This document shows, piece by piece, positions 28,969 through 37,511 of a stretch of DNA of 64,000 bases. This DNA is from a virus: IMG/VR virus record IMGVR_UViG_3300046616_000314, positions 1-64,000 of that record; one strand, given 5' to 3'. Position 1 is the first letter of the stretch. The number at the start of each line of letters is the position of its first letter. A program made the position numbers and the translations under genes. The notes under the pieces are model-generated. The model saw nothing but the letters and a program-made list of their open reading frames with translations, did not search any database and was not told the origin of the DNA.

Positions 28969-29499
28969 ATGAAGTCTCTCGCTATTGCCGCTCTCGCGGC
29001 TCTTTCTGTTGCCGCTGTTGCGGCTCCTGCCCTGGCTGCTACCGATTACGTTCAAGCGCAAGCTGGCGTCGGTTTCCAAGCCAACCGTGATAACGGTGAA
29101 GCCTATTCGGTCGCGGTCGGTCACGATTTCGGCACTGTCCGTGCTGAAGCCGAAGTGGTTGCTCTGCGCGGTCTGAACGACCCGAAGTTGGGTGATACCC
29201 AATCGAATCTGGCAAACATCAACGTGTACGTTGAGCCGGTCACTGTCTACGGCGTCACCCCGTTCGTCGGTGCTGGCGTTGGCTACGGTTCGCTGTTCGA
29301 CCGTGGTGTCAAGGGCGACCGTAATGGCGTCGTGTTCAACGCTTCGGCTGGTGCGACTTACCCGCTGACTGACAAGCTGACGCTGGTCGGTACTGCGCGT
29401 TATTTCATCGCCAACGACGTTGATTACGTCAAGACGCGCGGCACGCTGGACAACTACAAGGCTTCGGCTCTGACCGTTGGTCTCCGTTACAACTTCTAA
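28969..29499 (+). CDS. Outer-membrane beta-barrel protein, 176 aa
   Basis: A clear Sec signal peptide, MKSLAIAALAALSVAAVAAP then ALA before cleavage at about residue 23. The mature part alternates polar and hydrophobic residues in about eight strands, with glycine-rich turns (GVTPFVGAGVGYGSLF, YPLTDKLTLVGTARYF), and ends LTVGLRYNF with the C-terminal phenylalanine needed for barrel assembly. It has the size of an OmpA/OmpW-like small barrel. Own promoter and terminator. A phage-coded barrel might mask or replace a receptor; that role is inferred. Confidence 0.85.
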   Translation: MKSLAIAALAALSVAAVAAPALAATDYVQAQAGVGFQANRDNGEAYSVAVGHDFGTVRAEAEVVALRGLNDPKLGDTQSNLANINVYVEPVTVYGVTPFVGAGVGYGSLFDRGVKGDRNGVVFNASAGATYPLTDKLTLVGTARYFIANDVDYVKTRGTLDNYKASALTVGLRYNF

Positions 29500-29525
29500 T
29501 TCGTCTCCGAATTAGGACCAAGAGA

Positions 29526-29553
29526 AGCGGGGCAGAAATGTCCCGCTTTTTTG
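29526..29553 (+). terminator. Terminator of the outer-membrane protein gene
   Basis: AGCGGGGCA-GAAA-TGTCCCGCT stem-loop followed by six T. Confidence 0.85.
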
Positions 29554-29558
29554 TTTTA

Positions 29559-29587
29559 TTGACAGGAAACTCTTAAATAAGTAAAGT
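29559..29587 (+). promoter_or_regulatory. Promoter of the ArfA-like gene
   Basis: TTGACA (29559-29564), 17-base spacer, TAAAGT (29582-29587). AGGAGAA lies before ATG 29613. Confidence 0.6.
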
Positions 29588-29612
29588 GGAAATTCAATAG
29601 GAGAAAAAGGTT

Positions 29613-29861
29613 ATGAAGTCCAAAATTCCCAAGTCTAGAAATCCTGTGGCGAAAGCTCTGCGGTCTCCGCATCTGGCTCCCAAATCGTTTACCGCCCAAA
29701 AGGGCAAGGGAAGTTATTCCCGCAAGAGCCGGAATGGTGAAAAGCCTTCCGGCTCTTATCATATCTGGGTCCAGTCAAATTTTTGGATGCCATGGGCTTC
29801 GTATATGTCCCGAACCGTAATGATCACGCCATTGTCTTTCGTAACCCATTTCGGATTGTAA
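29613..29861 (+). CDS. arfA: ArfA-like alternative ribosome-rescue factor
   Basis: Residues 10-38 (NPVAKALRSPHLAPKSFT, then AQKGKGSYSRK) follow the ArfA pattern N-A/P-x-x-A-L-x-x-P...K-G-K-G-S-Y-x-R-K. ArfA binds ribosomes stalled at the end of a message without a stop codon and recruits RF2. In bacteria the arfA message carries a hairpin near the end of its frame that yields a stop-less mRNA. Here a perfect 11-bp inverted repeat spans codons 38-49 (29724-29757). The nominal stop at 29861 lies beyond it, antisense to the 29759 gene, so the working protein probably ends at the hairpin, at about 40-50 residues. Confidence 0.7.
   Translation: MKSKIPKSRNPVAKALRSPHLAPKSFTAQKGKGSYSRKSRNGEKPSGSYHIWVQSNFWMPWASYMSRTVMITPLSFVTHFGL
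29724..29757. terminator. Intragenic hairpin in the ArfA-like gene
   Basis: AAGAGCCGGAA (29724-29734), 12-base loop, TTCCGGCTCTT (29747-29757). No U tract follows on either strand. Its place matches the RNase III site or terminator inside bacterial arfA. It also lies one base past the stop of the convergent gene. Confidence 0.65.
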
Positions 29862-30181
29862 TAAGATTTCGTGAACCAGTCATAGACAGCCGGGCGCATC
29901 GCCGCATTGTCTTGGCTCACATGGGTAAATCCTGGCGCGGCGATTCTGTTGAACGGGATGAAGACAGAAATAGCGGGGCTTTTGTCCTCAAGAGAAAAAG
30001 CATCAAATTTTAATTTAAGCAGAGCAACGTCTTGATCGCTCTCGACGTAAAACAAGCAAGTCATCGTGTGGATATCAAAGCCCACGAATTCCACCAGATC
30101 GACACAGTTTTCCGAGAACCATCCGCGTTGGATGTTGCTGAGTTTGGCTTCACTGATGCCGTAATAGGGAAATGGTGTCAT
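29759..30181 (-). CDS. KW-tail protein fused to a second, tailless copy, 140 aa
   Basis: Residues 1-60 form a short member ending FYVESDQDVALLKLKFD without a stop. Residues 65-140 form a second unit with MRPAVYDWFTKSYYNPKWVT, ending DIYEAHGIQKFDWTQI where the tail should be. It reads as two array genes joined in frame. It starts in an ATGA junction after the 30178 gene. Confidence 0.68.
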   Translation of the reverse strand: MTPFPYYGISEAKLSNIQRGWFSENCVDLVEFVGFDIHTMTCLFYVESDQDVALLKLKFDAFSLEDKSPAISVFIPFNRIAAPGFTHVSQDNAAMRPAVYDWFTKSYYNPKWVTKDNGVIITVRDIYEAHGIQKFDWTQI

Positions 30182-30715: not shown

Positions 30716-30921
30716 TTCAATTTTGCTTCGATGGCGTCATTGAGTTTTTTGAACCCGATTACGGCAACGTGCCGGTCAGCATCATAAAATTCATAGAACC
30801 AACGAGAGCCATAGTTCTCGCGGAGAAACTTACCAAGTTGCGTCACCAAATGTCCATTCCGTGTGCCACCGCTCGGAAATTCTACCAGATGAGGCGTGGC
30901 GTGCCATTTAGGACTGTTCAT
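30697..30921 (-). CDS. KW-tail family protein, 74 aa
   Basis: MNSPKWHATPHLVEFPSGGT start (ATGA junction), GKFLRENYGSRWFYEFYDAD core and tail FKKLNDAIEAKLKWKGAT. The terminal GAT extension shows that the K-W start site for the next gene is kept even when the stop has moved. Confidence 0.74.
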   Translation of the reverse strand: MNSPKWHATPHLVEFPSGGTRNGHLVTQLGKFLRENYGSRWFYEFYDADRHVAVIGFKKLNDAIEAKLKWKGAT

Positions 30922-31205
30922 GCCCCACCCCACTTCAAGAGGAACAATGCCACGTCTTCTTCGGTGTGACAAAACACATGAAGATAATATTTTCTTTTTT
31001 CGGTAGTGTAAGACGCCACTGGTTCGATGAACGGTCCATCAACGAACATTCCAGGGTGATTTTCTAGACACCAATCGTCAATTTTATTACCCCAATTGCC
31101 CGTGAACGGATATTCACTAACCGGGCAATAGAGTTTGATGAAATACAAACCCACGCCAGGAGAGATCGGAGCCTTTCGTTTTTTGACCGTGTACCTCATA
31201 GCCAT
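30918..31205 (-). CDS. KW-tail family protein, 95 aa
   Basis: IDDWCLENHPGMFVDGPFIE core and tail CHTEEDVALFLLKWGGA. Standard MAM start overlapping the upstream gene by 10 bases. Confidence 0.76.
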   Translation of the reverse strand: MAMRYTVKKRKAPISPGVGLYFIKLYCPVSEYPFTGNWGNKIDDWCLENHPGMFVDGPFIEPVASYTTEKRKYYLHVFCHTEEDVALFLLKWGGA

Positions 31206-31504
31206 TTCAACCGAAACAACACGGCGTCTTCATCCGTAGAAAAACGAATGAAAGCCCTCCGGTTAGCGTCGTCCCTTGCCCACGCGAAACACATTTCGGG
31301 AATGTCATTGAGATATTGCCGACACCATTTCCATACCCTGTACTTGGGTGTGGTCTCAATGAGAAGAGTGGGAAAGTCGCTGTAAGCATCGGCGGGAATG
31401 TTGTCCCTGCCAATCACGGAAGAAAGTTTATACACCTTATCGAACGGGAGGTTGATCCAACCCGCCCGTTCCAACTCTCGCTGAGATTTATATTCTTTAT
31501 TCAT
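31196..31504 (-). CDS. KW-tail family protein, 102 aa
   Basis: VWKWCRQYLNDIPEMCFAWA core and tail FSTDEDAVLFRLKWL. First KW-tail gene of this leftward array; it follows the cREC gene with a one-base overlap. Confidence 0.76.
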   Translation of the reverse strand: MNKEYKSQRELERAGWINLPFDKVYKLSSVIGRDNIPADAYSDFPTLLIETTPKYRVWKWCRQYLNDIPEMCFAWARDDANRRAFIRFSTDEDAVLFRLKWL

Positions 31505-34423: not shown

Positions 34424-34900
34424 ATGAAAATCAAGCTCGCACTTATTGGTGCGCTAAGCCTAGCACTTGCCGGGATCGCACATGCCGAGACCGAAAAGAG
34501 TGCTTGGCAATTTCGCACTCCCGCTGAAACTTCTGTAGCGCAAAACAGCGTTGTTTTGATGCAGCAGAAGCAGAACGACTACTACAAGATGTACAAGAAT
34601 GGCGGCTCTGGCGTCATTGGCGGCGGAAGTGGTCTGTTCGGTTCGTCAACTTCGGCGACCAACAACTTCACGCAAATCGTCAACCAGAACACCACCAACA
34701 ACAACTGTTCTGCAACGGGCGCCGGATCGGCTCTGACGTGTGGTTCGTCTTCTACCAATACGAACAACGTCAATCAGACGACCACGGACTCGACCGCTGA
34801 TGCGAACAACACCATCACCGGTAACACCATCACGAACCAGCCCTCGACCACGACGAATTCGGGCAACACCGGTTCGACGGTAACTGGGGGCAACCAATGA
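34424..34900 (+). CDS. Secreted N/T/S-rich protein, possible fibre subunit (HfaA-position)
   Basis: Sec signal MKIKLALIGALSLALAGIAH with A-H-A cleavage at about residue 21. The mature N-terminus (EKSAWQFRTPAETSVAQNSV) is followed by about 90 residues made almost wholly of N, T, S, G and Q (NNFTQIVNQNTTNNN, TNTNNVNQTTTDSTADANN). Only two cysteines (NNNCSATGAGSALTCG) could form a disulphide. This composition suits a secreted amyloid-like or adhesive fibre protein. It is translated with the CsgG-like channel (ATGA overlap) and is first in a three-gene order that recalls hfaA-hfaB-hfaD. Confidence 0.7.
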   Translation: MKIKLALIGALSLALAGIAHAETEKSAWQFRTPAETSVAQNSVVLMQQKQNDYYKMYKNGGSGVIGGGSGLFGSSTSATNNFTQIVNQNTTNNNCSATGAGSALTCGSSSTNTNNVNQTTTDSTADANNTITGNTITNQPSTTTNSGNTGSTVTGGNQ

Positions 34901-35889
34901 ACAAGCGTAACCTTTTCCTGACCGTCGCTCTTATGATGTCGATGGCAATTCCTGCCGTGGCTTCCGCCGGAAGCAAGAAGGCAGTCAACCCGATGAACCC
35001 ACGCAATGCGATGGTTCTGGGATCGGCGCCGGAAAACAACGTGACCGCGACTCAAAACGGTTTCGTCTGTTTCGCCAACTACCTCGCCAAGGACCCGCGC
35101 CGCCCGGTCTTCTCGGTTGGTCGCCTGCGCGATGACTCGGGAAAGTTTTCGAATTTCGCCAATGAGCCGGGTTCGGCTGGCGGCTACGAAATGACCCAAG
35201 GTCTGTCCAACATGGTCTATACGGCTCTGGGCAAGCTGGCTCCTGACTTCGCCATCGTTGAGCGCACGGATACCGCAATCGTGGACTCCGAAATCTCGCT
35301 CGCCAAGGAAAGCCTGTTGGGCGATCCTTCGGAGCAAGGCACGTGGGCTGTCGATAAGAACGGGCAAAAGATTTTGCTCGGCAAAGGTCTTCGGTCCTTG
35401 ACCGGCGGTCAATTCCAGGGTGTTGATTACTACATCACTGGTGCGATCACCGAAATCAACTACAACATTTCGTCGGGCGGCGCCCAACTCAAGGTTCAAG
35501 GGATCGGCGGCGGCAATCGCGTCTATTCCATGAGCATTGCGATGGACCTTCGCATCGTGGATGCCCGCACGCTCCGCGTGGTCAAGACCGTCTCTGAACG
35601 GAAGAAGATCAGCGGTAATGAAACCGAATTTGGTGTCTTTAATTTCCTCGGAGATTATCTGATCGACATCAATGCGGGTCGTAAGCTTCAAGAGCCCATT
35701 CAACTGGGCGTGCGAGCGACTATGGAATCAGCCCTACTCAAGTTGGTCGGGGCTGCATATGGCACGAATTACGGGGAAACTTGTAGCTCGTATGCCGCCA
35801 CTACCTACGGTCAAGTTGTGCCTGTCACGACTCCCGTAGCCGACAACACGGCTGATCCCATCGCGGATAAGCTGTCGGCGTCGAAGTAA
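34897..35889 (+). CDS. CsgG/HfaB-family outer-membrane secretion channel
   Basis: 330 aa with signal peptide MNKRNLFLTVALMMSMAIPA-VASA. Family features: RPVFSVGRLRDDSGKF at 69-84, MTQGLSNMVYTALGKLAPDF at 99-118, AIVERTDTAIVDSEISLAKE at 119-138, VDYYITGAITEINYN at 176-190, then GGGNRVYSMSIAMDLRIVDA and TLRVVKTVSERKKISG. CsgG exports curli subunits and HfaB holdfast-anchor proteins through the outer membrane. No lipobox cysteine follows the signal, unlike CsgG, so it may not be a lipoprotein. Both neighbours are secreted, repeat-rich proteins and are the likely cargo. Confidence 0.82.
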   Translation: MNKRNLFLTVALMMSMAIPAVASAGSKKAVNPMNPRNAMVLGSAPENNVTATQNGFVCFANYLAKDPRRPVFSVGRLRDDSGKFSNFANEPGSAGGYEMTQGLSNMVYTALGKLAPDFAIVERTDTAIVDSEISLAKESLLGDPSEQGTWAVDKNGQKILLGKGLRSLTGGQFQGVDYYITGAITEINYNISSGGAQLKVQGIGGGNRVYSMSIAMDLRIVDARTLRVVKTVSERKKISGNETEFGVFNFLGDYLIDINAGRKLQEPIQLGVRATMESALLKLVGAAYGTNYGETCSSYAATTYGQVVPVTTPVADNTADPIADKLSASK

Positions 35890-35947
35890 GACGTACCCTT
35901 TAAAAAGCACGGGCATTCCGCTCGGCATAGGAAAGAGACCCTACAAT

Positions 35948-36811
35948 ATGCGTAATCTTCTCATCGCGGCTTCTGCCGTAGCTCTGTTCGCTGGCATCGC
36001 TACTCAAGCTTCGGCTACGGGCGACTCCTACGGCGTCCAACTGAACCTGGGCACCCTGCAACTGGGTCAGTCGAACGTTCATCGCACGTCGGTTGGCGGC
36101 AAGCTGAACCTCTCGACCGCCGCTGTCGGCACCAACCTGTCGGTCCTGTCGGACATCCCGGCGACGACTGACCACACCAGCAACAGCGGTCGTACCAACG
36201 GCGACGCTCGCGTGGCTTCTCTGCAAGTCAACGCCCTGACCGCCCAAATCGCGACCACCAGCGTCACTCGTTCGTCGGTCGGCGCCGATCTGACCACCAG
36301 CACGCAAGCCATCGGCAACGCTGTTGATGTCGAATCGACCCACAACTACGTGTCGAACGGCTACGTCACCAGCAACACCGATTTCGACAAGTCGATCAGC
36401 CTGCAAGCCAACGTCGGCGCCGTGCAACTCGCCACCACCGACATCGCCCGCGTTTCGGTCGGTGACGATCTGGACGTGAGCACCATCGCTGTCGGCAACA
36501 CTTCGTCGTTCTTCGGCGCCAAGGGCGTTGCGGCTGCGACCGGTCAACTGAACCTGGGTACGGTGCAACTGGCTTCGACCGACTTCACTCGCTCGTCGGT
36601 CGCTGACAACGCTTCGTTCTCGACTTCGGCTTTCGGCAACGTGGCGTCGTACACCGGCAACACCGTCGATCCGCTGACCGTCCAAGTCAACGCTCTGACC
36701 ATCCAAGGCGCCAGCACCAACATCGGTCGCTCGTCCTTCGGCGGTAACGTTTCGGTCGATACCTCGGCGGTCGGTAACGCGATCACCGTCTCGACCAACC
36801 TGAACAACTAA
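35948..36811 (+). CDS. Secreted five-repeat protein, possible amyloid or adhesin (HfaD-position)
   Basis: Signal MRNLLIAASAVALFAGIATQ-ASA, then five imperfect repeats at about 30-64, 91-126, 151-185, 199-232 and 244-278. Each reads L-N/V-x-L/V-G/A-x-x-Q-x-A-x-T-x-x-x-R-S-S-V-G...S-T-S-A-V-G-N (for example LQVNALTAQIATTSVTRSSV and TSTQAIGNAVDVES). Regular Q, N, S and hydrophobic spacing suggests a beta-solenoid or amyloid, as in curlins. Cargo of the CsgG-like channel by position. GC-rich and codon-regular compared with neighbours, which hints at recent acquisition. Start at ATG 35948, 58 bases after the channel gene. Confidence 0.75.
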   Translation: MRNLLIAASAVALFAGIATQASATGDSYGVQLNLGTLQLGQSNVHRTSVGGKLNLSTAAVGTNLSVLSDIPATTDHTSNSGRTNGDARVASLQVNALTAQIATTSVTRSSVGADLTTSTQAIGNAVDVESTHNYVSNGYVTSNTDFDKSISLQANVGAVQLATTDIARVSVGDDLDVSTIAVGNTSSFFGAKGVAAATGQLNLGTVQLASTDFTRSSVADNASFSTSAFGNVASYTGNTVDPLTVQVNALTIQGASTNIGRSSFGGNVSVDTSAVGNAITVSTNLNN

Positions 36812-36841: not shown

Positions 36842-36878
36842 AAGAGGGTAGGGGAGAAATCTCCTACCCTCTTTTTTA
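36842..36878 (+). terminator. Terminator of the secretion cassette
   Basis: AAGAGGGTAGG/CCTACCCTCTT stem followed by T runs. The convergent gene 36876 ends at its far edge. Confidence 0.88.
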
Positions 36879-37511
36879 TTTGCCGTACCGAAGTTTGAAT
36901 TCGATGATGTCATCTTCATTTGAAAAATAAAATACGATCTCGGCTTTTGCATCATCCCTACCGGGATCATCCCATTCAGAAATCGACCAGTAGCCGTTGT
37001 GTGGTTTCTGAATTTCTTTGCGCTTCAGAAGCCGACAATCTTTGACTGTCAGCATCAGCGACACCGGAGAGAACTTGTGACTCGCTGCACGGGCGAAGGT
37101 CACTTCCTCATCGAAGGGCACGAACAGGGTCCTAGGATCGAACCAGAAGCCCTCGGAATTGTGCCAGGGTAGTCCGTTGTCAAAACGGCTCTCCCTAAGC
37201 TGACGGAGGTTCCTACGCACGTTGTGGACTACGGATACGCGGCTGTACATCAGATCATGGACCTGCCGGGCGTTATACATTTGCTTGAGGCGAATGCGAA
37301 TCTGTTCGAAGGTAAAGAACCGGACGGCGGTCATGTGCCGGTTGTTGCTCATCCGGTACAGCCATTGCGCGGCATTCTTATCGCGCTTGTAAGCCCGTGT
37401 GACGGGGTTATCGCAGTGGTGGTGCTGGTTGAACGCGGCGATGCTTTCCGCCTTGCGTGCAGCCTTGGAGGCTCGCCAATCGATGATCTCTTGATATTGA
37501 TGACGTGCCAT
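36876..37511 (-). CDS. KW tail on a basic 190-residue protein, 211 aa
   Basis: Basic, histidine-rich N-terminal half (IDWRASKAARKAESIAAFNQ, HHHCDNPVTRAYKRDKNAAQ), then EIVFYFSNEDDIIEFKLRYGK. The tail is well kept, Y for W. No other member has a similar N-terminal part. Confidence 0.72.
   Translation of the reverse strand: MARHQYQEIIDWRASKAARKAESIAAFNQHHHCDNPVTRAYKRDKNAAQWLYRMSNNRHMTAVRFFTFEQIRIRLKQMYNARQVHDLMYSRVSVVHNVRRNLRQLRESRFDNGLPWHNSEGFWFDPRTLFVPFDEEVTFARAASHKFSPVSLMLTVKDCRLLKRKEIQKPHNGYWSISEWDDPGRDDAKAEIVFYFSNEDDIIEFKLRYGK

Follow-up and report, generated by a model that had tools for sequence, protein, structure and literature searches.

A phage arfA-like gene with an in-frame, terminator-like hairpin and a predicted stop-less message

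The stretch of DNA analysed here (the window) comprises bases 1-64,000 of a virus record of 561,116 bases. The replicative helicase has its nearest counterpart in Agrobacterium phage Atu_ph07 (52% identity), then in Pseudomonas phage PA5oct (47%) and Sinorhizobium phage Phosso (45%), and on the strength of these relatives we assign the source virus to the jumbo phages; a DNA-level search with the central 24 kb of the window found no similar phages. An arfA-like open reading frame of 82 codons (29613-29861, plus strand; ATG start, TAA at 29859-29861) encodes the 82-aa protein MKSKIPKSRNPVAKALRSPHLAPKSFTAQKGKGSYSRKSRNGEKPSGSYHIWVQSNFWMPWASYMSRTVMITPLSFVTHFGL. The features around it are collected in Table 1. 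An intrinsic terminator separates arfA from the upstream outer-membrane beta-barrel gene, which has the top coding score among the genes called close to arfA. As two promoter-type sites were found in the region against 2.1 expected, the promoter-like site ahead of arfA is suggestive by position only; together with the terminator, the AGGAG and the ATG, it gives the layout of a one-gene unit. The product of the convergent gene on the opposite strand had no match in a Pfam scan.

Table 1. Features at the arfA-like locus (window coordinates).
Feature	Position	Strand	Remarks
Outer-membrane beta-barrel gene	28969-29499	+	Pfam OMP_b-brl, E 2e-10; signal-peptide-like start
Intrinsic terminator of the beta-barrel gene	29521-29552	+	14-pair stem, TTTTTTG tail; fold z -4.0
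Sigma-70-like promoter TTGACA-17-TAAAGT	29559-29587	+	10/12 consensus; between upstream terminator and arfA
Shine-Dalgarno AGGAG	29599-29603	+	9 nt ahead of ATG; read from sequence
arfA-like coding region to predicted transcript end	29613-29765	+	~50-51 codons; ArfA core = codons 10-38; 3' limit inferred from hairpin
Hairpin within arfA frame	29724-29757		Perfect 11-bp inverted repeat, 12-nt loop; terminator-like; starts in last codon of core
Nominal read-through tail of arfA frame	29760-29861	+	34 codons including stop; scores non-coding; many aromatic/hydrophobic residues
Convergent gene, 140 aa	29759-30181	-	Coding score +16.9; TGA at 29761-29759, 2 nt past hairpin

ArfA is largely disordered when off the ribosome, and its KGKGSYxRK tail enters the mRNA channel. 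The original prediction had recognised the K-G-K-G-S-Y-x-R-K core of ArfA in the phage protein, and this was borne out: the core, NPVAKALRSPHL...KGKGSYSRK, ends in the KGKGSYxRK tail at residues K30-K38, and both Pfam and profile comparison support an ArfA-like protein. The Pfam ArfA family (PF03889) matched at 22.1 bits (E = 1.1e-4), below its gathering cut-off of 25.5 bits, which relatives from phage CRP-212 (33.3 bits), Cr30 (27.2 bits) and Brevundimonas phage (38.8 bits) exceed; an NCBIfam scan of the protein gave no match. When phage proteins of the KGKGSY type, among them the product of 29613-29861, were made into a profile and compared with 50 distinct enterobacterial ArfA sequences, hhalign returned 97.85% with E = 6.4e-13. 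In a single-sequence search, ArfA chains were the only PDB matches, weak (E about 0.4) and gapless over residues 10-45, and 62% identity over 32 residues was shared with an unannotated ORF of Caulobacter phage Cr30. Like E. coli ArfA (YhdL, PF03889), the phage protein shows N-x(8)-P followed by the KGKGSYxRK core. Unlike it, besides scoring below the Pfam cut-off, it carries Lys14 (with Ala at 13 and 15) where the gapless alignment places E. coli Ala18, a residue of the N-terminal minidomain needed for activity. The coding score of arfA is near zero, as is possible for a short gene rich in K and R. On these comparisons, the protein is homologous to ArfA by sequence, and its activity is predicted.

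The inverted repeat had likewise been foreseen, and a perfect one of 11 bp (AAGAGCCGGAA at 29724-29734, TTCCGGCTCTT at 29747-29757; 14 bp with its inner part) indeed lies within the frame, beginning more than 100 nt ahead of the first in-frame stop; it does not lie just after the core, though, as its first base falls in the K38 codon. The RNA fold reaches -24.4 kcal/mol (z = -4.1), and none of 200 shuffles was equally good. Perfect stems of at least 11 bp occur at 0.0256 per kb within called genes of this genome, and the chance of such a stem is ~0.0015 (about 0.15%) per given 60-nt stretch, for a single preset position. There are 6 T in the 12 nt at the 3' end of the hairpin, few of them past the stem, where intergenic hairpins have 1 to 10, mostly 6-9; the tail beyond the arfA stem, ATCATATC, is U-poor. 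A terminator scan of the region, with a loop limit of 8, did not list this hairpin with its loop of 12. Past the hairpin, the arfA frame has a hexamer score of -0.35 per step, and the antisense frame is weakly coding at +0.13 to +0.16. That the nominal end of the frame is antisense to another gene was correct, the overlap being with the ORF at 29759-30181 (minus strand).

We listed perfect hairpins across the phage genome, taken in pieces. They are concentrated at the ends of genes and often occupy the short gap between convergent genes, in the style AAAGAGCCGG..CCGGCTCTTT; examples stand between convergent genes at 508170 (AAAGAGCCGGGG..CCCCGGCTCTTT) and at another gene end at 530220 (AAAAGAGCCGGG..CCCGGCTCTTTT). 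The arfA hairpin shares this terminator style, with its G+C stem, A/T base pairs at the foot and position between convergent genes. Only 2 of 64 terminator-like hairpins precede the stop in a coding-looking frame; that of arfA comes in addition to these, absent from the in-frame list because of the near-zero coding score of the gene. The phage search gave no match for RNase III, of which the host would have its own. Nor was a phage tmRNA detected, either as an alpha_tmRNA match or by ARAGORN over the genome.

Hairpins inside the frame recur in other phages. In Atu_ph07, an unannotated ORF (368611-368742, minus strand; MAKKRNPVALVLRQSTFKMKVVKSKKQYDRKKIAGRRPSGDYRIV...) has one right after YxRK, with a stop some 30 nt past it. 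The right-arm core letters and the PSGxY codons are common to both hairpins. Counted on manually aligned arms with the loop filled arbitrarily (MAFFT put the loop gap in the wrong place), two outer pairs differ in both of their bases and none is broken. This covariation, from two sequences, carries no statistical support (135 of 500 shuffles were equally good), and the shared codons could also reflect conservation of the protein. PA5oct gp293 reads CAGGACTA-ggaa-TAGTCCTG-ATTTTTTATG in frame, with a stop 20 nt later. Both genes thus resemble arfA in having the core with an in-frame hairpin right after it, and an N-terminal RNPxA motif is common to the phage arfA and the group formed by the Atu_ph07 ORF, PA5oct gp293 and DUF7230 (PF23876). 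Unlike arfA, however, both have a core without its KGKG part (KKQY and KTKY, respectively), and in Pfam the Atu_ph07 ORF matches DUF7230, just below cut-off, rather than ArfA. The arfA of Citromicrobium phage RXM contains a 9-bp in-frame hairpin (AAGGGCAGG..CCTGCCCTT) that is not a feature in the RXM record, and Ochrobactrum phage OC has a possible in-frame terminator, whose fold failed to score (z -0.4). In Acinetobacter T4-like phages, the terminator covers the last codons and the stop or lies downstream of the stop. Besides, in ORM_20, phiM9 and IC12, ArfA-like frames with neither a stop close by nor a strong hairpin extend into a convergent gene (in ORM_20 an Rz-like spanin); this layout is possibly another route to a stop-less message.

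Core and hairpin thus occur together in Atu_ph07, PA5oct, RXM and possibly OC, but most IMG/VR matches have a plain stop. Among the matches listed from DNA-pattern scans of IMG/VR, 99 distinct arfA-like phage ORFs were sampled; in 77 of them, an ordinary stop follows the core by no more than 60 nt; in Cr30, HTVC027P, Mwe-JY26, the Brevundimonas phages and most IMG/VR sequences, the stop follows within about 30 nt. In contrast to the arfA described here, the genes of HTVC027P, Cr30 and the Brevundimonas phages show no in-frame hairpin and reach an ordinary stop no more than 15 nt after YxR. An in-frame stem of at least 7 bp was present in 10 of the 99 listed ORFs, yet seven of these belong to one fusion group and, their arms being near-identical, do not count as independent support. 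In this group, the ArfA core is fused in frame to a second small phage protein, the junction bearing an 8-bp hairpin and an ATG. As a control, the near-perfect-stem test was run on 72 enterobacterial arfA genes and detected a hairpin ahead of the stop in only 4, presumably because enterobacterial arfA stems are imperfect, so other phages that test negative may still have a stem of the RNase III type. Among phage arfA-like genes, the non-stop design is in the minority. Most of them end in a plain stop without a hairpin; trans-translation control is therefore not a general feature of phage ArfA, nor is a non-stop message required for it.

The same comparisons turned up two further arrangements. 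In Roseobacter phage CRP-212, the annotated CRP212_gp38 contains, in a different frame, a clear ArfA-like ORF at about 1498-1626; a chance match within another gene was rejected given its ArfA E-value of 3e-8, and it was kept as a nested ORF. Several small phage proteins from IMG/VR join unrelated-looking N-termini to a common KGKGSYxRK tail and are possibly rescue factors with other partners.

Elsewhere in the 561-kb record, an RF1-like gene without the N-terminal domain (open frame about 104600-105325, plus strand; RF-1 domain 63.9 bits) has an in-frame UGA at 104729, at what we take to be a conserved Trp position in release factors. The genome has only one other in-frame TGA codon with coding-looking sequence on both sides; regulation, recoding, decay and sequencing error are all possible. 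Eighty-seven reading frames of the record (all six frames, some perhaps chance) end in a motif like EEDAxxFKLKWL, which occurs on otherwise different small proteins, e.g. at 30918-31205, 31196-31504 and 36876-37511 of the window (all minus strand), and is perhaps a targeting or packaging tail. The window also holds a gene for a CsgG-like secretion pore (34897-35889, plus strand; Pfam E 6e-19), whose neighbours (34424-34900 and 35948-36811) have signal-peptide-like starts and repeats; by sequence, the genes at 34424-36811 are predicted to form a curli-like export cluster in a phage.

We consider it fairly probable that the phage encodes an ArfA-type alternative ribosome-rescue factor with a non-stop message. 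Transcription would start at the promoter just 5' of arfA and end at the in-frame hairpin, and translating about 50 codons would bring the ribosome to the end of an mRNA without a stop. With an active host tmRNA-SmpB system, the product would be tagged and degraded; the protein would accumulate mainly once host rescue is overwhelmed, and a pile-up of non-stop ribosomes, e.g. as phage or host nucleases cut messages, may be what turns arfA on. Termination at the hairpin that leaves no stop is the simplest reading, the U-poor tail being its weak point, and the style of the phage's other terminators points to it. In E. coli, the arfA mRNA is turned into a non-stop message through RNase III cleavage of an inverted repeat, with termination as a second route (PMC3989581); tmRNA then keeps ArfA protein low (also PMC8012679), while in brfA a terminator precedes the stop (PMC8012679). 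By analogy with bacterial ArfA and BrfA, tmRNA control, recruitment of RF2 or another release factor and a benefit to the phage may be expected here. That the factor guards against ribosome stalling or tmRNA loss in infected cells, as originally proposed, is a hypothesis. E. coli ArfA remains functional when truncated at Asn47 and fails if shorter, according to PMC5378476. Asn47 corresponds to residue 43 of the phage protein in the gapless alignment, and the predicted product of ~50 aa exceeds this minimum. The E. coli system is thus matched in the in-frame inverted repeat and, on the phage side as a prediction, in a stop-less message and a ~50-aa product; it is not matched in that the phage gene is phage-borne and has a short, perfect, terminator-style stem instead of an imperfect one cut by RNase III. 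BrfA of B. subtilis, a chromosomal gene unlike ours, is alike in layout: an intrinsic terminator in frame ahead of the stop yields a non-stop message.

Which route would truncate the message bears on the alternatives. Stems of 11-14 bp are short for RNase III. As the stem is of this size, sits exactly between convergent genes and belongs to a phage without an RNase III match, the message is more likely to be truncated by transcription termination, as in brfA, than by RNase III cleavage, which predominates in E. coli. The expectation of a stop-less message made as in bacterial arfA is thus supported by the position of the hairpin and shifted as to the route. Cleavage inside the hairpin by host RNase III, despite the precedent of the E. 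coli inverted repeat (PMC3989581), appears quite improbable: a cut in the left arm would take away basic residues of the tail, and style and position of the sequence fit the phage's terminators. Very improbable indeed is an error in sequencing or assembly of the metagenomic record that hides the true stop before the hairpin end. A frame shift would put a TGA in the loop (about 29738-29740) in frame, and in a typical phage ArfA the stop comes no more than 60 nt after the core; on the other hand, Atu_ph07, an isolated and sequenced phage, has the same order of core, hairpin and late stop, and the PSGxY codons after the core.

It is also conceivable, if unlikely, that a working ArfA is made constitutively, the hairpin being an ordinary bidirectional terminator of the convergent pair with frequent read-through or without regulatory role. 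This is favoured by the genome-wide occurrence of such hairpins between convergent genes, by the U-poor tail and by the minority status of the non-stop type among phage arfA genes. Yet the arfA hairpin is nearly the sole one ahead of the stop of its gene, in-frame hairpins recur in Atu_ph07, PA5oct and RXM, and any working termination at this site would produce a stop-less message. We retain the rescue factor with a non-stop message as our preferred reading. A further-reaching and decidedly doubtful idea is that in some jumbo phages the stop-less message of a rescue factor senses saturation of host trans-translation and, in the present phage, may act together with the UGA-interrupted RF1-like protein, so that the state of the host release machinery sets both rescue and termination.

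A phage that carries both factor and hairpin had been proposed, and both are present here; phage ArfA itself is not new, being annotated in GenBank for Brevundimonas phages, Citromicrobium RXM and Ochrobactrum OC. Likewise phage-encoded is gp30 of Pelagibacter phage HTVC027P, described in PMC12753301 as an ArfA that is highly transcribed early and late in infection. We found no paper on non-stop regulation of phage ArfA in the open-access literature, a search to which most subscription papers are external, and a literature search on DUF7230 returned none; the kinship of this phage family with the ArfA-like proteins suggests that it may have a similar role. A genome survey (PMC11633108) reports no arfA in 2,376 alphaproteobacterial genomes. 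As phages of these bacteria have ArfA-like genes, cells relying on tmRNA and ArfB may gain a second rescue route from them. In this way, a bacterial fail-safe, the making of a rescue protein from a stop-less message, would be linked to phage infection, and since versions with a plain stop exist beside those with a hairpin, the value of tmRNA control can be put to the test.
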